From assembly GCF_014170375.1 (NCBI RefSeq), contig NZ_LZZW01000024.1, forward strand, positions 124,001-188,000: a stretch of 64,000 nucleotides of DNA, given 5' to 3'. Shown one piece after another: positions 9,436 through 58,431 of this stretch. The notes under the pieces are model-generated. The model was given only the letters and a program-made list of their open reading frames with translations. It made no database searches and was not told the origin of the DNA. The stretch is from Variovorax sp. UMC13. Its GTDB lineage: Bacteria; Pseudomonadota; Gammaproteobacteria; Burkholderiales; Burkholderiaceae_C. The translations under genes and the position numbers were made by a program. Positions within the stretch are counted from its first letter, which is position 1. Each line of letters begins with the position of its first letter.

Positions 9436-10194
9436 TCAGGCCATGGCGCGCAGCGCCATGTAGAGCCCCAGCAGCGCCAGCCCGATCAGGAAGCAGCGCT
9501 TGAACAGCGTCACCGACAGGCGCTTGCGCAGCCAGGTGCCCAGCACCATGCCGACGATGGCCGGCACCAGCATCGCGAAGGAGCCGCCCAGCGCGGCCAC
9601 CGGCAGCCCGCCATTGCCCGCCAGCCCGATGGCCAGCACCACGGTCGAGGTGCTGAAGGAAATGCCCATCGCCTGGATCAGCGAATCGCGCTCGAAGCCC
9701 AGCGCCTGCAGATAGGGCACGGCCGGCACCGCGAACACGCCGGTCAGCGAGGTCACGACGCCCGTGACCACCCCCACCAGCGGCCCCAGCCAGCGCGCCT
9801 GTGCCGGGCTCACATGCAGCTGGCGCCCCGTGAGGCCCCAGAGCGCATAGACCATCAGCGCCACGCCCAGCGCCAGCGAAGCCCAGGCGCCGGCCGGCAC
9901 GCCGAAGTACAGCGAGCCGCCCAGGGTGCCTACCACCACGCCCGCCTGCATGCCGGCGATGCGGCGCCACACCGCCCTGAAGCTCTCGCGCGGCCTGGTC
10001 TGCCAGAGGTTGGTGAGCAGCGAGGGCACCACCAGCAGCGCGGCCGCGCGCACCGGCGCCATCCACAGCGCGAGCAGCGCCATCGACACGGTCGGCAACC
10101 CGAGCCCGACCACGCCCTTGATCGCACCGGCCGCCAGGAACACGGCCGCGGTGGCCGCCCAATGGCCCAAGGCCAGTTCGTTTGGAATCGTCAT
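9436..10194 (-). CDS. Sulfite exporter TauE/SafE family membrane protein
   Basis: 252 residues with about eight hydrophobic segments, two of them glycine-rich (AAGAIKGVVGLGLPTVSMALL and GVVTSLTGVFAVPAVPYL), as in the TauE/SafE permease family, which is implicated in export or uptake of organosulfonates, sulfite and related anions. It reads away from a LysR regulator, from which it is separated by a 91-bp divergent region. Its stop is only six bases from the NUDIX stop on the other strand. Confidence 0.87.
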   Translation of the reverse strand: MTIPNELALGHWAATAAVFLAAGAIKGVVGLGLPTVSMALLALWMAPVRAAALLVVPSLLTNLWQTRPRESFRAVWRRIAGMQAGVVVGTLGGSLYFGVPAGAWASLALGVALMVYALWGLTGRQLHVSPAQARWLGPLVGVVTGVVTSLTGVFAVPAVPYLQALGFERDSLIQAMGISFSTSTVVLAIGLAGNGGLPVAALGGSFAMLVPAIVGMVLGTWLRKRLSVTLFKRCFLIGLALLGLYMALRAMA

Positions 10195-48547: not shown

Positions 48548-48562
48548 GCCAGAATTTCAGAA

Positions 48563-48578
48563 CTTCTTGAAGCTTCAG
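48563..48578. promoter_or_regulatory. Candidate operator of the GbsR/MarR gene
   Basis: CTTCTTGAAG (48563-48572) and the overlapping perfect palindrome TGAAGCTTCA (48568-48577), preceded by TTTCAG at 48555-48560. The TTTCAG, ACTTC and GAAG blocks recur upstream of cydD at 57234-57264, suggesting binding by one regulator. It is 24-40 bases before the ATG. Confidence 0.5.
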
Positions 48579-48601: not shown

Positions 48602-49195
48602 ATGCCCAGCACCAGCAGCCCTCCCCTCGAGCTCCCGCCCCTCAACCGCCAGTTCGTCGCCCACTTCGGCGAGATGGGCAGCAAGTGGGGCATCAACCGC
48701 ACCGTTGGCCAGATCTATGCGCTGATCTTTTTATCGGAGCGTGCGCTCAACGCCGACGAGATCTCCGAGCTGCTGGCCTTCTCGCGCTCCAACGTGAGCA
48801 TGGGTTTGAAGGAACTGCAGGCCTGGCGGCTGGTGCGCCTGCGCCATCAGTCCGGCGACCGCCGCGAGTACTTCGAAGCGCCGTCGGATGTCTGGGAGAT
48901 CTTCCGCGTGCTCGCCGAGGAGCGCCGCCGCCGCGAGATCGAACCCACGCTGTCGATGCTGCGCATGGCGCTGCTCGAGGAACCCACCTCGGCCGAGGAG
49001 CGCCATGCCCAGCAGCGCATGCGCGAGATGCACGACCTGATCGACCGGCTGATGAAGTGGTTCGACGACGTGCAGCGCCTGGCGCCCGAGACCGCCATGC
49101 AGCTCATGGGCATGGGCGCGACCGTGACCAAGGTGCTGGGGCTCAAGGACCGGTTGACGGGCGGGGGCAAGCGGGGGAAGGCGGCCGAGAAGTAG
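48602..49195 (+). CDS. GbsR/MarR family transcriptional regulator
   Basis: 197 residues: an N-terminal winged helix-turn-helix of GbsR type (GINRTVGQIYALIFLSERALNADEI, SRSNVSMGLKELQAWRLVR, GDRREYFEA wing) and a C-terminal helical dimerisation region ending in a Lys-rich tail. Such proteins are repressors or activators of envelope or respiratory genes. Probable link to cydDCABX (convergent, 1.5 kb away) rests on similar palindromes upstream of both genes; inference. The start ATG 48602 lies just after the palindromes. Confidence 0.88.
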   Translation: MPSTSSPPLELPPLNRQFVAHFGEMGSKWGINRTVGQIYALIFLSERALNADEISELLAFSRSNVSMGLKELQAWRLVRLRHQSGDRREYFEAPSDVWEIFRVLAEERRRREIEPTLSMLRMALLEEPTSAEERHAQQRMREMHDLIDRLMKWFDDVQRLAPETAMQLMGMGATVTKVLGLKDRLTGGGKRGKAAEK

Positions 49196-49347: not shown

Positions 49348-49731
49348 ATGTCCGAGACCCACAAGGCAATTCTGCAGAAGGCCAATGCGGCCATCACCCG
49401 AGGCGACTGCGAGGGCTTCCTCGCCCTCTGCACCGAGGACACGACCTGGACCTTCGTCGGCGACAGGACACTGCGCGGCAAGCAGGCCGTGCGCGAGTGG
49501 ATGGCCATCGCCTACAAGGAGCCGCCCCGCTTCGAGGTGCATCGCCTGATCGCCGAGGGCGACGCGCTCGCGGCTCTCGGGGATATCCTGCTGAAGGACG
49601 AAGAAGGCAAGACCAGCCGCCACGCGTATTGCGATGTCTGGCGCTTTCGCGACGGCAAGATGGCCGACCTGCAAGCCTTCGTGATCGAGGCCCGTCTGGA
49701 AGAAGGCGATGAACTCGCGCAAGGGGGCTGA
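49348..49731 (+). CDS. SnoaL-like / NTF2 family protein
   Basis: 127 residues of the nuclear-transport-factor-2/SnoaL-like cone fold (ILQKANAAITRGDCEGFLALC, TWTFVGDRTLRGKQAVREW, YCDVWRFRDGKMADLQAF). Members range from ketosteroid isomerase-like enzymes to ligand-binding proteins. No operon partner. The 152 bases before it hold no clear promoter. Confidence 0.85.
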   Translation: MSETHKAILQKANAAITRGDCEGFLALCTEDTTWTFVGDRTLRGKQAVREWMAIAYKEPPRFEVHRLIAEGDALAALGDILLKDEEGKTSRHAYCDVWRFRDGKMADLQAFVIEARLEEGDELAQGG

Positions 49732-50651: not shown

Positions 50652-50801
50652 CTACAAGCGCTCCTGATTCCGGGACGGTTCAGGCGTCTCGAACTTGTCG
50701 CGGCGAATCGCTTCGTCGTCCATCAGCTCGTACCACATCGCATTGAGCACCGCGAAGGTGGCTGCCAGCGGCAGCCCCAGGATCCAGGCGAAGTACCACA
50801 T
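50652..50801 (-). CDS. cydX: Cytochrome bd oxidase small subunit CydX
   Basis: 49 residues beginning MWYFAWILGLPLAATFAVLN, with a single transmembrane helix followed by a charged tail (MDDEAIRRDKFETPEPSRNQ). The N-terminal MWYFAWILG is shared with E. coli CydX (37 residues), and Glu25 falls at the same position as its conserved Glu25. CydX stabilises the haem centres of CydAB. It is the last gene of cydDCABX, separated from cydB by 152 bases that contain a repeat. Confidence 0.93.
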   Translation of the reverse strand: MWYFAWILGLPLAATFAVLNAMWYELMDDEAIRRDKFETPEPSRNQERL

Positions 50802-50844: not shown

Positions 50845-50954
50845 CGGGGGTGGGCCAGTGACACCGCGGAACCGGCTTTGCCGGGCCGCTGGTGTCGCCC
50901 CCTCGAGGGGGAAGCCGAAGCGACACGCAGTGCGCGAGGCCTCGGGGGTGGGCC
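50845..50954. repeat. Direct-repeat-flanked palindromic element between cydB and cydX
   Basis: Bounded by 12-bp direct repeats CGGGGGTGGGCC (50845-50856 and 50943-50954). It contains a hairpin CCGGCTTTGCCGG and the perfect 14-bp palindrome CCCCCTCGAGGGGG (50898-50911). The GACACCGCGGAACCGGCTTTGC and CCCCCTCGAGGGGG blocks resemble a dispersed intergenic repeat I recall from Comamonadaceae genomes. The right copy of the repeat reaches the cydB stop codon. Confidence 0.75.
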
Positions 50955-52108
50955 TAGTACGCGTGTCCGCGCTCATCTCGAATGGCTTCGGCATCCACCT
51001 TGCCCCACAGCACGTGGTAGACCCAGGTGGTGTAGGCCACGATGATCGGCAGGAAGATCGCGGTCGCGACCAGCATGTTGAACAGCGTCAGGTGGCTCGA
51101 GGACGAGTCCCACACCATCAGGCTGGCGCGCGGGTCAATCGACGAGGGCAGGATGAAGGGGAACATCGACGCGCCCACGCTGAGCACGATGCCCGCGATC
51201 GACAGGCCGCTGGCCAACAGCGTGGCCACCTCGCGCCGCAGGCGCAGGCCGATCAGCGCCAGCAATGCGCCCGCGAGACCCAGCACCGGTGCCGCCCACA
51301 GCCAGGGCTTGGCCGCGTAGTTGAGGAACCAGGCGCCGGCGTGCAGTTCGGCGGTCTTGAGCATCGGGTTCGACGGGCCGGTGGTCGGCAGCGCGCTGGT
51401 CACGCGGTAACCGTCGATCCAGGTCCAGAGCGCGAAGCCGGCCAGCGTGTAGAGCAGCAGCGTGGCGATGGCGGCCCAGCTGCCGTAAGTGCGTGCGCGT
51501 TCGGCCACGGCGCTGTCGGTCTTGAGCTGCAGCCAGGCCGCGCCGTGCATCAGCATCATCGCGACCGACACCAGGCCGCACAGCAGCGCGAAGGGGTTCA
51601 GCAGGCCGAAGAACGTGCCGTCGTAGAAGATGCGCATGTCGCTGGCAAAACGGAAGGGCACGCCCTGCAGCACGTTGCCCACGGCCACGCCGTAGATCAG
51701 CGCCGGCACCAGGCCGCTGGCGAACAGCACCGCGTCCCAGCGCGCGCGCCAGGCCGGCTCCTCGCGCTTGCTGCGGAACTTGAAGGCCACGGGCCGCAGG
51801 ATCAGCGCGACCAGGATCACGAACATCGCGAGGTAGAAGCCCGAGAAGGACACCGCGTAGAGCTGCGGCCAGGCCGCGAAAACCGCCCCGCCGCCCAGGA
51901 TCAGCCAGACCTGGTTGCCTTCCCAGACCGGGCCGACGCTGTTGATGATCACGCGGCGCTCGTTGTCGTTGCGCCCCGCGAAGGGCAGCAGCATGCCGGC
52001 GCCGAGGTCGAAGCCGTCGGTGACCGCATAGGCGACCAGCAGCACGCCGATCAGCAGCCACCAGACCATGCGCAGGGTTTCGTAGGAGATCAGTTCGTTC
52101 AGGACCAT
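50954..52108 (-). CDS. cydB: Cytochrome d ubiquinol oxidase subunit II
   Basis: 384 residues, about nine transmembrane segments, with the family motif GFDLGAGMLLPF near residue 31. CydB pairs with CydA to form the high-affinity, proton-motive-force-generating terminal oxidase, which resists cyanide and nitric oxide. It follows cydA by 16 bases. The stop lies in the right copy of a 12-bp repeat. Confidence 0.97.
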   Translation of the reverse strand: MVLNELISYETLRMVWWLLIGVLLVAYAVTDGFDLGAGMLLPFAGRNDNERRVIINSVGPVWEGNQVWLILGGGAVFAAWPQLYAVSFSGFYLAMFVILVALILRPVAFKFRSKREEPAWRARWDAVLFASGLVPALIYGVAVGNVLQGVPFRFASDMRIFYDGTFFGLLNPFALLCGLVSVAMMLMHGAAWLQLKTDSAVAERARTYGSWAAIATLLLYTLAGFALWTWIDGYRVTSALPTTGPSNPMLKTAELHAGAWFLNYAAKPWLWAAPVLGLAGALLALIGLRLRREVATLLASGLSIAGIVLSVGASMFPFILPSSIDPRASLMVWDSSSSHLTLFNMLVATAIFLPIIVAYTTWVYHVLWGKVDAEAIRDERGHAY

Positions 52109-52124: not shown

Positions 52125-53738
52125 TTATTCGGCGGCGCCGGTCAGGGGGCGCGGCGAGGCGCGCAGCTCGGGTGCGGCACCGGCGCGGTAGAGCGCGGGC
52201 GGCGGCACGGGATGCTCCTCGGGCCCCTTGCGGATGGCCTTGAGCATCAGCTTCATCTCGATCACGAACAGCGTGGTGTAGATCGCCACGAAGCCCACGA
52301 TGGTGATCAGCAAGGTGGTCACGCCCAGGTTCGACACCGCCACGGCCGTTGGCAGCACGCCTTCGATCACCCAGGGCTGGCGGCCGACCTCGGCCACGAT
52401 CCAGCCGCACTCGGCGGCGATCCACGGCAGCGGGATCGCGAACACCGCGACCTTGAGCAGCCACGGGTGCGCATCGAGCCGGCGCCGCGTCGACAGCACG
52501 AAGAAGGTGGCGGTGAGCAGGATGAAGAACATGCCCAGCCCGACCATGATGCGGAAGGACCAGTAGAGCGGCGCCACCGCGGGGACCGTGTCCCAGGCGG
52601 CCTTCTGGATCTGCTCGGGCGTGGCCTGGCGCGGGTCGTCGACATAGCGCTTGAGCAGCAAGGCGTAGCCCATCGACTGTCCGTTGGCCTCGAAGGCCTC
52701 GCGCGCGGCGGCCGGCACCGCGGCATCGCTGCCGGCCGCGCGGATGGTCTGCAGCGCGTCGTAGGCCTTGATGCCCGCGTGGATATGCTCCTCGGCGCGC
52801 TCGACCAGTTCCTCGATGCCGGGGATCACGGTGTCGAGCGAGCGGGTGCCGATCAGGCCCATCACGGCCGGGATGTGGATCGCATAGTGCGTCTCGCGCG
52901 CGGCCTGGTCGGGGAAGCCGAAGGCGGTGAAGGCGGCCGGCGCGGGCTCGGTCTTCCACATGGCCTCGATCGAGGCCAGCTTCATCTTCTGGTGCTCGGT
53001 CGAGAGGTAGCCGCTCTCGTCGCCCAGCACCACCACCGACAGCGAGGCCGCGAGGCCGAAGGACGCGGCCACGGTCATCGAGCGCTTGGCGAGTTCCAGG
53101 TGCCGGCCCTTGAGCACATACCAGGCCGACACGCCCAGCACGAAGATCGCCGCCACCGTGTAGCCGGCCGACACCGTGTGCACGAACTTGGCCTGCGCCA
53201 CCGGGTTGGTCAGCACGGCGAAGAAATCGGTGACCTCCATGCGCATGGTCTGCGGGTTGAAGGCCGAGCCCACCGGGTTCTGCATCCAGCCGTTGGCGAT
53301 CAGGATCCACAGCGCCGAGAAGTTGGAGCCGATGGCCACGGCCCATGTGGTCATCAGATGGCCGACCTTGCTGAGCTTGTCCCAGCCGAAGAAGAACAGG
53401 CCGACGAAGGTGGCTTCGAGGAAGAAGGCCATCAGGCCTTCGATGGCCAGCGGCGCGCCGAAGACGTCGCCCACGTAGTGGCTGTAGTAGCTCCAGTTCA
53501 TGCCGAACTGGAACTCCATCACGATGCCGGTGGCCACGCCCATCGCGAAGTTGATGCCGAAGAGCACGCCCCAGAACTTGGTCATGTCGCGCCAGACCGT
53601 GCGCCCGGTCATCACGTAGACCGTCTCCATGATGGCGACGATCACCGCGAGACCGATGGTCAGCGGCACGAAAAGGAAGTGGTACAGCGCCGTGAGGGCG
53701 AACTGCAATCGGGAGAGAGCGACGATGTCGAGGTCCAT
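52125..53738 (-). CDS. cydA: Cytochrome d ubiquinol oxidase subunit I
   Basis: 537 residues, about nine transmembrane segments. His20 (LYHFLF) corresponds to haem ligand His19 of E. coli; a conserved His lies in AKFVHTVSAGY, and the Met ligand is in FRIMVGLGM. The periplasmic Q-loop (GYLSTEHQKMKLASIEAMW onward) is long, so this is the L-subfamily of bd oxidases. The conserved GRQPWVIEGVLPT quinol-side segment is near residue 440. Confidence 0.97.
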   Translation of the reverse strand: MDLDIVALSRLQFALTALYHFLFVPLTIGLAVIVAIMETVYVMTGRTVWRDMTKFWGVLFGINFAMGVATGIVMEFQFGMNWSYYSHYVGDVFGAPLAIEGLMAFFLEATFVGLFFFGWDKLSKVGHLMTTWAVAIGSNFSALWILIANGWMQNPVGSAFNPQTMRMEVTDFFAVLTNPVAQAKFVHTVSAGYTVAAIFVLGVSAWYVLKGRHLELAKRSMTVAASFGLAASLSVVVLGDESGYLSTEHQKMKLASIEAMWKTEPAPAAFTAFGFPDQAARETHYAIHIPAVMGLIGTRSLDTVIPGIEELVERAEEHIHAGIKAYDALQTIRAAGSDAAVPAAAREAFEANGQSMGYALLLKRYVDDPRQATPEQIQKAAWDTVPAVAPLYWSFRIMVGLGMFFILLTATFFVLSTRRRLDAHPWLLKVAVFAIPLPWIAAECGWIVAEVGRQPWVIEGVLPTAVAVSNLGVTTLLITIVGFVAIYTTLFVIEMKLMLKAIRKGPEEHPVPPPALYRAGAAPELRASPRPLTGAAE

Positions 53739-53786: not shown

Positions 53787-55535
53787 TCAGTCGGGGCGCA
53801 GGGTGCGCAGCGCGGCCTCGAAGGCCGGGGTGCCGCGCGCGAGCTCGGCCGTGAGGCGGCCGTCGTCGAGGCACAGCAGCCGGTCGGCCAGCGCGGCCTC
53901 GCGGCGCAGGTGGGTGGCGATCAGCAGCGTGCGGCCCGTCGCCGCGGCGGCCAGGCGCTGCAGCACGTCGTGGGCCGTGGCGGTGTCGAGCGCTTCGGTG
54001 GCCTCGTCCAGCAGCCAGAAGGAGGCGTCGCGCAGCAGCAGCCGCGCGAGCGCGAGCCGGCGCAGCTGGCCGCCCGACAGGCCCAGCCCGCCCTCGCCCA
54101 GCGCGGTGTCGAGCCCGACCGCGGTGGCGCGCACCTCGGCCGCCAGGCCCGCGGCCTCGAGCACCGACCAGAGCCGCGCATCGTCGGCCGAAGGGTCGGC
54201 CAGCCGCAGGTTGTCGCGCAGGTCGTCCTGGAACAGCTCGGTGCGCTGCGTGAGCAGGCAGTGCGGCGGCACGCGCAGTTCGCCCTGCGTGGGCGCGAGT
54301 TCGCCGGCCAGCACCGAGAGCAGCGTGGACTTGCCAGCGCCGCTGGGGCCGATCAGCGCCACGCGCTCGCCGGGCGCGATCGTGAAAGAGAGGCCGTGCA
54401 ACGCCTGCACCGCGCTGCCTTCGTAGCCCGCGACGATGTCGTGCAGGCGGACGTCCTCGGAGGCGGCGGCCGGCACCGGTGGCGCGCTGTCGTGCATGCG
54501 CGGCGCGAGGCGGCGCACCGCGAGCCAGGTGCGGCCGGCCTCGAGTGCGCCGCGGCGCAAGGCGGCGAAGGGCTCCGTGGCCGTGAGCGCCAGCAGCAGG
54601 GCCAGCGCCGCGGCCGGCGCGCCGATCGCGCCCTCGCCCGCCAGCGCGCCCACCCCCAGCAGCACCGCGACCAGGGTCAGCGTGCCCGCCAAGCCATAGC
54701 CCATGCCGGCGCGCAGTTCGAGGCGGTTGAGCGCCAGGTCGGCGCGCGCGAGCCGGCGGTCGGCCGCGGCCAATGCCTCGCATTGCGCATCGAGCCGGCC
54801 CGCCATCGCGAGCTCGGTCTGGCCGGCCACGAGGTCGACCGCGCGGGCACGCAAGGCTTCCATCGCCTGGGCGCGCCGCATCGCATGCGGCTTGGCGCGC
54901 TGCGCCACGACCCAGGCCATGCCCCAGCCGAAGGCGATCAGCCAGCCGGTCAGCGCCACGCCCATGCCGATGTGCATGAAGCCCAGCACCGTGCCCGCCA
55001 GCAGCGCCGCGCCGAGGGCCGCGAGGGCCGGCACGATCAGGCGCAGGTAGAGCGATTCGAGCGCGTCGATGTCGGCCGTGAGCCGGAACAGCAGCCGGGC
55101 CGGCCGGGCCTGCAGCCGCCGCGCCGCCTCGGGCCGGGCCCAGCCGCGGAACAGGCGTTCGCGCAGGTCGGCCAGCGCGGCGAAGGTGGCGTCGTGCGTC
55201 ACCAGGCGCTCGCCGTAGCGCGCGCCGGTGCGGCCCAGCGCCAGCAGCCGGATGCCGGCCGAGGGCGCGAACACGTCGAACACCAGCGCGGTGCTGGCGC
55301 TCAGGCCGGCCAGCGCGGTGGCGGTGATGAACCAGCCCGACAGGCCCAGCAGCGCCATGCCCATCAGCACGGTGAGCGCGGCCAGCGCGGCGCCCAGCGC
55401 GAGCCGGCGCGGGGCGGTGGCGAGCAAGGGGCGCAGGACGGTGCGCAACTCGCTGGCGGCACGGCTCGGCGGCACGACCCGTCCGCGGAAACCGGGGCGG
55501 CGACGACGCGTCTTCAGGGGAATGCTCGTGCTCAT
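53787..55535 (-). CDS. cydC: Thiol reductant ABC exporter subunit CydC
   Basis: 582 residues: six transmembrane segments, then an ABC ATPase domain (Walker A GPSGAGKST near residue 385, signature LSGGQ, Walker B LLDEATEALD). CydDC exports glutathione/cysteine and is needed to assemble cytochrome bd. The N-terminus carries an extra Arg-rich stretch (LKTRRRRPGFRGR). It overlaps cydD by four bases (ATGA). Confidence 0.95.
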   Translation of the reverse strand: MSTSIPLKTRRRRPGFRGRVVPPSRAASELRTVLRPLLATAPRRLALGAALAALTVLMGMALLGLSGWFITATALAGLSASTALVFDVFAPSAGIRLLALGRTGARYGERLVTHDATFAALADLRERLFRGWARPEAARRLQARPARLLFRLTADIDALESLYLRLIVPALAALGAALLAGTVLGFMHIGMGVALTGWLIAFGWGMAWVVAQRAKPHAMRRAQAMEALRARAVDLVAGQTELAMAGRLDAQCEALAAADRRLARADLALNRLELRAGMGYGLAGTLTLVAVLLGVGALAGEGAIGAPAAALALLLALTATEPFAALRRGALEAGRTWLAVRRLAPRMHDSAPPVPAAASEDVRLHDIVAGYEGSAVQALHGLSFTIAPGERVALIGPSGAGKSTLLSVLAGELAPTQGELRVPPHCLLTQRTELFQDDLRDNLRLADPSADDARLWSVLEAAGLAAEVRATAVGLDTALGEGGLGLSGGQLRRLALARLLLRDASFWLLDEATEALDTATAHDVLQRLAAAATGRTLLIATHLRREAALADRLLCLDDGRLTAELARGTPAFEAALRTLRPD

Positions 55536-57229
55536 AGCTGAATGACGCGGTTCATGCGCGCGGCCAGGACGGGGTCGTGCGTCACGGCGATCAACGTCTT
55601 GCCGTGCGCCAGTTCCATCAGGGCATCCGCCACGCGCTCGGCCGTTTCGCAGTCGAGGTGCGCGGTGGGCTCGTCGACCAGCAGCAGGTCGGCCGCGGGC
55701 TGGGCCGCGATGCGCGCCAGCGCGAGCCGCACGGCCTCGCCGCCCGACAGGCCGCTGCCGCCTTCGCCCAGCGCGGTGGCGGGATGGGCCTGCGCCACGC
55801 CGCCCAGGGCGGCGAAGCGCATCGCCTGTTCGACCTGCGGGCCGTGCACGCCCTCGCGCCCCAGCGCCACGTTGGCTTGCACCGATCCCGCGAACACATG
55901 GGGGCGCTGGCCCATCCAGCCGATGCGGCGGCGCAGGCCGGCGGCGCTCGCGTCGTCCAGCGCGACGCCGCCGATGGCGATCTCACCCGAATCGGCCGGC
56001 ACCAGGCCCGCGATCAGGCTCAGCAGCGCGGTCTTGCCGGCGCCGCTCGCGCCCATCAGCGCGACGTGTTCGCCGGGCGCGATGCGCAGGTCGAAGCCTT
56101 GCAGCACCGGCGCTTCGCCGGCATGGCCGAAGTGCAGGTCGCTGATCCGGACCGAGGGTGCGCCGACGCGCTCGCCCACGGCCGCCTCGCCCTGTGCGCC
56201 CGGCAGCGGCACGCCGCCCTCGGCCAGCCCGTCGAGCGCGTCGAGCGCCGCCTCGCCAGCCGCGCGGTCGTGCCACACGGCCGACAGCTCGCGCAGCGGC
56301 TCGTAGAAGGCCGGCGCCAGCAGCAGCACGAACAGACCTTCGCCCAGCGTGAGGCGCGTGCCCCAGCTGCCGAATTCCAGCGTGCCCAGCAGATGGAAGC
56401 CGACATAGACCGCGACCATCGCCACGCCCAGCGCAGCGAACAGCTCCAGCACCGCGGACGACAGGAAGGCGATGCGCAGCACGGCCATGGTGCGGCGACG
56501 CAGCGACTGCGCGGCCTCGCCCAGCCGGCGCGCGGTGGCGTCGACCGCGCCCAGCGCGCGCAGCGTGGCCAGACCGCGCAGCCGGTCGAGCAGGAAGGCG
56601 TTCATGCCGCCCATCGCCACCATCTGCTCGCGGCTCGCGGCCTGCGCGCGCCAGCCCACGATGGCCATGAACAGCGGGATCAGCGGGGCCGTGACCAGCA
56701 GGACCAGCGCCGCCACCCAGGAGAACCAGGCCACCAGCGGCAGGATGCACAAGGGCACCAGCACCGCGCGCCAGCGCGCGGGCTGGTAGCGCGCCAAGTA
56801 GGGCACCACCGCCTCGGCCTGCTCGGCGATCGCGCTGGCCGCCAGGCCCGAGGCCGGCCGGCGCGCATCGAGCGGCGAGCGGGCCGCCAGCGCGCGCGCC
56901 ACCTGCGCGCGCAAGGCCGAGAGCTGGGTCCGCACCTCGGCGAACACGCGGCGCGCGCCCCAGGCCTCACAGGCCGCGCGCGCCACGCCCAGCAGCAACA
57001 CGCCCAGCGCCGGCAGCCACACCGCGGCCATGCCCTCGCCCGCGCCCAGCCCCTGCACCGCCCAGGCCAGCAGGCCCGCCTGCGGCAACCAGAACAGCGC
57101 CGCGGCGCCCTGCACCAGGCTGCCGAGGCCCGGGGCCGCCAGGGCGCGCAAGGCATCGGTCGACCGGCCGACGGCCTCGGGCGATGGCGTGGTGTGGGAA
57201 GGCGACGAAGACATCTTTGTGGGATTCAT
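55532..57229 (-). CDS. cydD: Thiol reductant ABC exporter subunit CydD
   Basis: 565 residues: six transmembrane segments, then an ABC ATPase with Walker A GASGAGKTA (Ala in place of the usual Ser/Thr), signature LSGGE and Walker B LLLVDEPTAHLD. Partner of CydC. First gene of cydDCABX. The start ATG lies just downstream (in transcription) of palindromes at 57234-57264. Confidence 0.94.
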   Translation of the reverse strand: MNPTKMSSSPSHTTPSPEAVGRSTDALRALAAPGLGSLVQGAAALFWLPQAGLLAWAVQGLGAGEGMAAVWLPALGVLLLGVARAACEAWGARRVFAEVRTQLSALRAQVARALAARSPLDARRPASGLAASAIAEQAEAVVPYLARYQPARWRAVLVPLCILPLVAWFSWVAALVLLVTAPLIPLFMAIVGWRAQAASREQMVAMGGMNAFLLDRLRGLATLRALGAVDATARRLGEAAQSLRRRTMAVLRIAFLSSAVLELFAALGVAMVAVYVGFHLLGTLEFGSWGTRLTLGEGLFVLLLAPAFYEPLRELSAVWHDRAAGEAALDALDGLAEGGVPLPGAQGEAAVGERVGAPSVRISDLHFGHAGEAPVLQGFDLRIAPGEHVALMGASGAGKTALLSLIAGLVPADSGEIAIGGVALDDASAAGLRRRIGWMGQRPHVFAGSVQANVALGREGVHGPQVEQAMRFAALGGVAQAHPATALGEGGSGLSGGEAVRLALARIAAQPAADLLLVDEPTAHLDCETAERVADALMELAHGKTLIAVTHDPVLAARMNRVIQL

Positions 57230-57233
57230 GTAA

Positions 57234-57264
57234 TTTCAGTATTTACTGAAACTTCCTGAAGTTT
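57234..57264. promoter_or_regulatory. Overlapping palindromes, candidate operator of cydDCABX
   Basis: TTTCAGTA-TT-TACTGAAA (57234-57251) is a perfect 8-bp-arm palindrome. It overlaps AAACTTC-CT-GAAGTTT (57249-57264), a perfect 7-bp-arm palindrome. They end five bases before the cydD ATG and probably cover the promoter. Similar TTTCAG and ACTTC/GAAG blocks precede the GbsR/MarR gene (48555-48578). The rest of the gap to 57468 shows nothing clear. Confidence 0.6.
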
Positions 57265-57468
57265 AAAGGATGTGCGCTGCGTTTGCACGGCGCATGATGA
57301 CCGCGATACGTGAAATGGCCAAAGACAGGCGCGCGCGGCTGCGCGGCCACGGGCTCTCGCGAGGTGGCGGCGGGGTCGCAGCAAGGGATTTTTTCGAGCG
57401 GCGCTGGACGCGCCGTCGTTCACCGCCCAGGCACTGGGCGGGGGGTCAGCCGGCCGAGAGGAAGCGGA

Positions 57469-58431
57469 TCAGAGCGCCAGCCGCGCGCGCGCCGCGAGGT
57501 ACTCGCGCTTGAGCTTCTCGACGAAGGCCGCGGTGCTGGTCACCTCGGTGATCGCGCCGATGCCCTGGCCCGAGCCCCAGATGTCCTTCCAAGCCTTGGC
57601 CTTGCTGCCGTCACCCGAGGCGAAGTTCATGGTCTTGAGGTCGCCCTGGGGCAGGTTCGCGGGGTCCATGCCGGCCGCGACGATGCTGGGCGCGAGGTAG
57701 TTGCCGTGCACGCCGGTGAACAGGTTCGAGTAGACGATGTCGTCGGAGCTGCCGTCGACGATGGCCTGCTTGTAGGCCTCGCTGGCGCGGGCTTCCTCGG
57801 TCGCGATGAAGGCGGTGCCGATGTAGGCGAAGTCGGCGCCCATGGCCTGCGCCGCCAGCACCGCGTCGCCGCTGGCGATCGAGCCCGACAGCGCGATCGG
57901 GCCGTCGAACCACTGGCGGATCTCCTGGATCAGCGCGAACGGGCTCTTCACGCCCGCATGGCCGCCGGCGCCGGCCGCCACGGCGATGATGCCGTCGGCG
58001 CCCTTCTCGATCGCCTTCTTGGCGTACTTGTTGTCGATGATATCGTGCAGCGTCACGCCGCCGTAGCTGTGCACCGCTTCGTTGACGTCGACGCGCGCGC
58101 CCAGCGAGGTGATGACGATCGGCACCTTGTACTTCACGACCATCTCCATGTCGTGCTCGAGCCGGTCGTTGCTCTTGTGCACGATCTGGTTGATGGCAAA
58201 GGGCGCGGCCGGCTTGTCGGGGTTGGCCTTGTTGTAGGCCGCGAGTTCCTCGGTGATTTCGATCAGCCACTCCTCCAGCTGCGCGGCCGGCCGCGCGTTG
58301 AGCGCCGGCATCGCGCCGACCACGCCGGCCTTGCACTGGGCGATCACCAGCTTGGGGTTGCTGATGATGAAGAGCGGCGAGCCGATGATGGGCAGCGGCA
58401 GGTTCGCGAGCACGGAGGGGAGCTTGGACAT
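57469..58431 (-). CDS. NAD(P)H-dependent flavin oxidoreductase / nitronate monooxygenase family
   Basis: 320 residues, FMN-binding TIM-barrel family (2-nitropropane dioxygenase/enoyl-reductase FabK type). Landmarks: PIIGSPLFIISNPKLVIAQC near residue 14, GAGGHAG near 165, and MGADFAYIGTAFIATEEA near 215. Predicted to oxidise nitronates or reduce enoyl-type substrates. The start MSKLPSVLANLPLP follows the family; an earlier ATG extends into a repeat. It is downstream of the acyl-CoA dehydrogenase. Confidence 0.9.
   Translation of the reverse strand: MSKLPSVLANLPLPIIGSPLFIISNPKLVIAQCKAGVVGAMPALNARPAAQLEEWLIEITEELAAYNKANPDKPAAPFAINQIVHKSNDRLEHDMEMVVKYKVPIVITSLGARVDVNEAVHSYGGVTLHDIIDNKYAKKAIEKGADGIIAVAAGAGGHAGVKSPFALIQEIRQWFDGPIALSGSIASGDAVLAAQAMGADFAYIGTAFIATEEARASEAYKQAIVDGSSDDIVYSNLFTGVHGNYLAPSIVAAGMDPANLPQGDLKTMNFASGDGSKAKAWKDIWGSGQGIGAITEVTSTAAFVEKLKREYLAARARLAL

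Follow-up and report, generated by a model that had tools for sequence, protein, structure and literature searches.

Cytochrome bd oxidases sustain respiration under low oxygen and under cyanide, sulfide and metal stress, and their control outside Escherichia coli has been little studied. In Alishewanella sp. WH16-1, the GbsR-type protein CydE represses cydEAB (Xia et al. 2018, PMC6096048); site 1 of its DNase I footprint is TATTTCAGAAATTTCTGAAAGTTCA (TTTCAG-AAATTT-CTGAAA), and a synthetic copy was confirmed to bind CydE by electrophoretic mobility shift assay. A second repressor of this kind is CioR, which acts on cioAB in Chromobacterium violaceum (PMC11837568), and 34 CydE-like genes lie beside cyd clusters, mostly in Alpha- and Betaproteobacteria (PMC6207618). 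Here we analyse a 64,000-nucleotide stretch of the Variovorax sp. UMC13 genome (contig NZ_LZZW01000024.1, positions 124,001 to 188,000; hereafter the window), in which two palindromes precede the cytochrome bd operon cydDCABX. The first of these, at 57234–57251, is very probably the operator of a GbsR-type regulator encoded at 48602–49195, a relative of CydE and CioR, as its arms and spacing match the published footprint, its presence tracks that of CydE across genomes, and it ranks first with a weight matrix trained blind to it. Regulation by a CydE-type repressor is known elsewhere; sequence comparison and analogy predict it here for a new bacterial group.

The window resembles the Alishewanella system in having a GbsR-type regulator beside cytochrome bd genes and an operator of the form TTTCAG-N6-CTGAAA. 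The right flank of the Alishewanella operator, TTCA, also fits the outer half-site of the gbsR-cioAB sites examined here. The gene arrangement differs: cydE shares a transcript with cydA and cydB in Alishewanella, whereas the window gbsR stands apart, faces cydDCABX convergently and has a degenerate site of its own. Chromobacterium CioR controls a CIO-type oxidase (short Q-loop) and has one cysteine, while the window CydE has none; in the available text of PMC11837568, cydD goes unmentioned and the CioR binding site is undefined. The Bacillus regulators GbsR and OpuAR share a fold family with the window CydE, but act on osmoprotectant genes with choline-type inducers (PMC6207618). Within the open-access literature we found no report of the operator motif beyond the Alishewanella footprint; PMC13038864, in its available text, cites the CydE work in the reference list only.

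The probable operator core and its regulator

An earlier sequence-only reading of the window had described two perfect palindromes overlapping by three bases at the start of cydD, and the sequence at 57234–57264, TTTCAGTATTTACTGAAACTTCCTGAAGTTT, bears this out. Palindrome 1 (57234–57251; TTTCAG-TATTTA-CTGAAA) has 8-bp arms and a 2-nt loop, palindrome 2 (57249–57264; AAACTTC-CT-GAAGTTT) has 7-bp arms and a 2-nt loop, and the shared bases are 57249–57251. On the cydD strand the promoter ends in CATCCTTTAAACTTCAGGAAG-TTTCAGTAAATACTGAAA-TTAC-ATG, leaving 4 nt between the end of the core, palindrome 1, and the cydD start codon. Among perfect palindromes of the window with arms of at least 7 and a loop of at most 4, these two have the highest A+T content, and both fall within the most A+T-rich 60-mer (57208–57267) of a window whose G+C content is 70%. 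When the 60-mer 57220–57279 was shuffled 2000 times with dinucleotides preserved, arms of at least 8 with a loop of at most 2 arose in 6 of the shuffles. With up to three mismatches allowed, TTTCAGTAAATACTGAAA occurs nowhere else in the window, and the mean across 100 shuffles was 0.00.

The core agrees with Alishewanella footprint site 1 in all 12 arm bases and in the 6-bp spacer. We built a 40-bp weight matrix from 60 gbsR-cioAB promoters of other genomes, including no cydD site and none from this genome. Scanned over the 64-kb window, it placed the cydD site first (score 53.4) and a site upstream of gbsR (48555–48572) second (26.8), with the next non-overlapping places at 0.2 or below. In five cydDCAB loci that lack CydE, the top score among 76,810 positions was 8.7. 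The null set also included nine paralog loci, which held all 14 top null places, mostly on or beside operators of a TTTCTG type described below.

The regulator is a 197-residue, MarR-family protein of GbsR type encoded on the plus strand. It scores above the cut-off for MarR_2 (PF12802), but reaches only 56 bits with the NCBIfam CudC model, far under the 218-bit cut-off. MJ223 (1KU9) came first by E-value in both sequence-profile and predicted-fold searches, and the nearest structures to the predicted fold are 1KU9, 5JBR and 4NB5. The best named CydE matches are mostly from Variovorax, at 88–92% identity.

The sequence-only reading had further proposed that the regulator controls both itself and cydDCABX. 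Comparative evidence and the footprint of the homologous CydE argue strongly for the operon and more weakly for the regulator's own gene. Autoregulation would run through the weaker copy at 48555–48572, the second-best place of the window by the blind matrix, and is our tentative reading for this organism. This copy, within 48555–48578 (TTTCAGAACTTCTTGAAGCTTCAG), departs from consensus at 2 of 12 arm bases and retains a right outer half-site, TTCAG, on the plus strand at 48574–48578, an offset where other CydE sites often carry one. The same reading had noted TTTCAG, ACTTC and GAAG blocks shared by the two regions. The blocks do recur, but in a different register: at gbsR, ACTTC and GAAG supply the spacer and right arm for the degenerate TTTCAG-N6-CTGAAA site, whereas the cydD copies fall outside the core. 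Among CioA-type-linked loci (n = 102), the regulator's own site is exact in 69, has one mismatch in 31 and two in 2; in CydA-type-linked loci (n = 31, leaving out G078, a genome in which gbsR heads the operon) the numbers with 0, 1, 2, 3, 4 and 5 mismatches are 1, 7, 13, 5, 3 and 2 (p = 4e-16, inflated by kinship among the genomes).

A search of the whole 7.1-Mb genome with at most one mismatch, a tolerance that would miss degenerate sites such as that of gbsR, returned six places, three of them exact. The two exact places other than cydD were rejected as strong sites: they are repeats with GC-rich spacers on contig 38 that overlap open frames and score −4.2 with the matrix. These identical TTTCAGCAAGGTCTGAAA copies (9717–9734 and 9803–9820) lie 86 bases apart inside a longer repeat and are probably unrelated. 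A one-mismatch site with an AT-rich spacer on contig 10 (362167–362184; matrix score 13.3) lies about 80 bp upstream of an open reading frame (position 1264 of locus L293) that, judged by eye, resembles a nucleobase permease.

All genes of the operon are on the minus strand: cydD (55532–57229, annotated ATG at 57229), cydC (53787–55535), cydA (52125–53738), cydB (50954–52108) and cydX (50652–50801). The gbsR gene converges on them from 1.5 kb beyond cydX. Between gbsR and cydX lies a SnoaL-like gene (49348–49731), which has no obvious connection with cytochrome bd.

Dependence of the cydD site on CydE

We examined the core in three sets of loci. The first, 80 loci of named organisms, was retrieved by CydE and so has no negative class; 22 of its loci have cydD, of which one (L204) was excluded because the cydD start is cut off. 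The core was present in all 21 assessable cydD promoters, 18 times exactly and three times with one mismatch, and 14 carry the identical TTTCAGTAAATACTGAAA. The gbsR-cioAB promoters likewise have the site in 60/61 and 47/48 cases (overlapping samples). In all, the 72 ortholog places and 20 of the 37 paralog places in the family were covered.

The other two sets supply the negative class. A first sample of 200 genomes of the family yielded 20 with cydD (21 loci), and a second draw, of 399 genomes and overlapping the first, added 19 new cydD genomes; a locus was scored positive when a core with no more than one mismatch lay in the roughly 500 bp preceding cydD. In the first sample, 11 loci had a CydE ortholog, and 10 of these had the site. 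In the eleventh, G078, gbsR heads a gbsR-cydDCAB cluster and an exact core precedes gbsR. None of the 10 loci lacking an ortholog had the core upstream of cydD, including two from genomes (G086 and G126) that encode only a sister protein. Four genomes (G022, G150, G177 and G188) keep the cydD site with gbsR on a different contig from the operon. Predictions for the second sample were fixed beforehand, and the site was found in 9 of the 10 genomes where it was expected and absent in 8 of the 9 where it was not.

The strict counts over both samples are 20/22 loci with CydE and 0/18 without. By promoter region they become 22/22 and 0/18, the two additions, G078 and G752, having the site in the linked gbsR region. 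The sequence-only reading had named loss of the motif in close relatives retaining both genes as a refuting outcome, and the counts go against it. The CydE-positive and CydE-negative states each occur in several genera. In two congeners, G581 and G651, there is no match to cydD (E ≤ 1e-100) and none to CydE (E ≤ 1e-60), a pattern that would fit joint loss or gain of the operon and its regulator.

In E. coli, FNR and ArcA control cydAB, which encodes an oxidase of the same kind. One alternative is that the palindromes serve another regulator, whether FNR/ANR-type or an unknown dimer, with the link to gbsR coincidental. Boxes resembling the FNR site do occur upstream of cydD in some relatives, alongside the CydE site: they are exact or near-exact in L066 (from genome G162), L244, L192 and L251, and perfect in G162 and L244, so other regulators may also act there. 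The core itself is no FNR box, and the window cydD promoter lacks one, as the sequence-only reading had said: the best match to TTGAT-N4-ATCAA within 57230–57700 has 4 of 10 bases wrong. The core also follows the presence of CydE, is found ahead of the cydE gene as well and agrees with the published footprint of CydE, which leaves a coincidental link to gbsR highly unlikely.

Promoter anatomy, the second palindrome and the signal

Many sites extend beyond the core. Counting matches of at least 4 of 5 bases, 55 of 107 gbsR-cioAB sites have a left outer half-site CTGAA and 66 a right one, TTCAG, whereas CTGAA averages 1.5 at other upstream offsets; of 31 distinct cydD sites, 7 have the left and 17 the right half-site, over a background of 0.3. 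Of these 31 sites, 21 come from the named set with its many Variovorax. In 25 of the 31, the first base of a −10-like hexamer falls exactly 14 nt upstream of the core, TATGAT being commonest. The ten sites from outside the named set have a looser TANNNT at −14 in seven cases and at −17 in two, with none in one. The window candidate, TAAACT (57260–57265, minus strand), also starts exactly 14 nt upstream of the core. The gbsR-cioAB promoters have no fixed −10 position, their offsets being scattered. With this geometry the core would span about +1 to +18 of the cydD transcript, and blocking of initiation is then the simplest reading of repression.

Lying at or just past the predicted transcript start, the palindrome could instead work at the RNA level, forming a hairpin in a cydD leader that would be very short. 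We consider this extremely improbable: the arms hardly vary, conservation extends to the AT spacer, gbsR promoters place the core anywhere from about 17 to 114 nt before the gene, and the presence of the core depends on CydE.

Our preferred scheme for this organism, an inferred one, takes the core as a CydE operator. A CydE dimer would bind TTTCAG-N6-CTGAAA at the cydDCABX transcript start, just downstream of the −10 element, where it would block RNA polymerase and repress the operon, until an effector releases it. At the weaker copy, 48555–48572, binding may give mild autorepression.

Palindrome 2 has a different distribution. It covers the place where related promoters have the TATGAT −10 box, and on the sequences compared it is a sublineage feature over the −10 position, outside the general operator. 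Of the 31 distinct cydD sites, only that of the window has an exact ACTTCNNGAAG beside the core, and none of the 107 cio-type sites does; L251 comes within two mismatches of the full second palindrome, and the congener G122 lacks it. Another congener, G713, which is outside the set of 31, keeps it at the matching place with both arms intact and one loop base changed; among the loci examined, G713 is the only other genome with AAACTTCNNGAAGTTT. Over 33 bases G713 and the window differ at just two loop or spacer bases, while their flanks agree at 8/12 positions on the left and 4/12 on the right. This conservation could be taken to mean that palindrome 2 is an independent second operator, accommodating another CydE dimer for tighter repression in the sublineage. 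We regard this as a tentative possibility, somewhat on the doubtful side, given its restriction to so few genomes and a half-site spacing that differs from that of the core; the palindrome may merely result from the −10 element TAAACT being fused to an outer half-site.

As to the signal, the sequence-only reading had suggested oxygen or redox control through the regulator, a suggestion that our comparisons do not support. Cysteine is absent from the window protein and from 129 of the 147 bd-linked or same-operator relatives, and any one cysteine column is common to at most 14 of the 147. We rejected direct sensing through cysteine or an Fe-S cluster because no cysteine is conserved, and oxygen as the direct signal of the window CydE is unsupported. 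Published homologues respond to other cues: Alishewanella CydE loses DNA binding with sulfate (PMC6096048), Chromobacterium CioR loses it with Zn or Fe, an effect reversed by EDTA and not by DTT (PMC11837568), and an indirect response to cyanide is described as well. The lack of a conserved cysteine argues against a cysteine redox switch and directs attention to conserved histidines. H21 and H82 are conserved in both the bd clade and its sister clade, and H144 is present in 134/147 bd-type proteins but in 1/28 of the sister clade.

Several observations weigh against the operator assignment and the scheme built on it. In Alishewanella, CydE has a second protected sequence that does not resemble the first (PMC6096048). 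Related operators in nine sister-clade loci reach 37.5 with the blind matrix, exceeding the window gbsR site. The prediction failed in 2 of 19 genomes, both explained only afterwards: in G752 a one-mismatch site lies between divergent gbsR and cydD, about 620 bp from the cydD match where 460 bp had been searched, and in G744, counted as CydE-positive in the combined totals, cydE is present but cut by the contig start (residues 93–186, 87% identity). The strict contrast gives Fisher p = 3e-9, and the relatedness of the genomes means that such values overstate independence. The window −10 candidate is weak, and a consensus sigma-70 scan of the window promoter found no promoter. Autoregulation is less certain since the window gbsR site is off consensus and CydA-type loci range from 0 to 5 mismatches.

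A sister clade and a possible operator code

GbsR paralogs of a sister clade, at 42–49% identity, are associated with a related operator. Upstream of family paralogs, TTTCTG-N6-CAGAAA (at most one mismatch) was found at 19/20 loci and the TTTCAG form at 2/20, the two operators differing by one symmetric base. The sister-clade loci L168–L186 and L271–L292 mostly have TTTCTG-N6-CAGAAA before the gene; by Pfam, the neighbours at three such loci include a DCC1-like protein (3/3), an epimerase (2/3) and a DoxX-like protein (1/3). Outside the family, in 25 loci of the same class, the TTTCAG form occurs at 7/8 bd-linked loci and the TTTCTG form at 14/17 unlinked ones, three of these 14 fitting the TTTCAG form too with one mismatch.

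Residues 60, 61, 67 and 68 around the recognition helix split the two groups (FSRSNVSMG in CydE, VARSNVSTS in the sister clade), as do many other residues, largely because the groups are two clades. For this residue comparison each site was assigned to whichever pattern fitted it better, a choice biased towards a clean split; the four counts above (19/20, 2/20, 7/8 and 14/17) were made without that assignment. Four bd-linked loci were classed as T-type: L105 and L158 have a one-mismatch site of each type, L165 is a paralog that happens to sit near cydDCAB, and L256, contrary to a clean split, has an exact TTTCTG-type site overlapping a one-mismatch TTTCAG-type site. These comparisons make it reasonably likely that CydE and its sisters read TTTCAG-N6-CTGAAA and TTTCTG-N6-CAGAAA, respectively, with the switch tracking residues 60, 61, 67 and 68, and that CydE moved between CioAB and CydDCABX together with its operator, its own site decaying once uncoupled.

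The operator comparison points to candidate DNA-contact residues and offers an operator code that is testable. A precise operator that, in the genomes examined, is present where its repressor is and absent where it is not would make the CydE regulon predictable across Burkholderiales from sequence.
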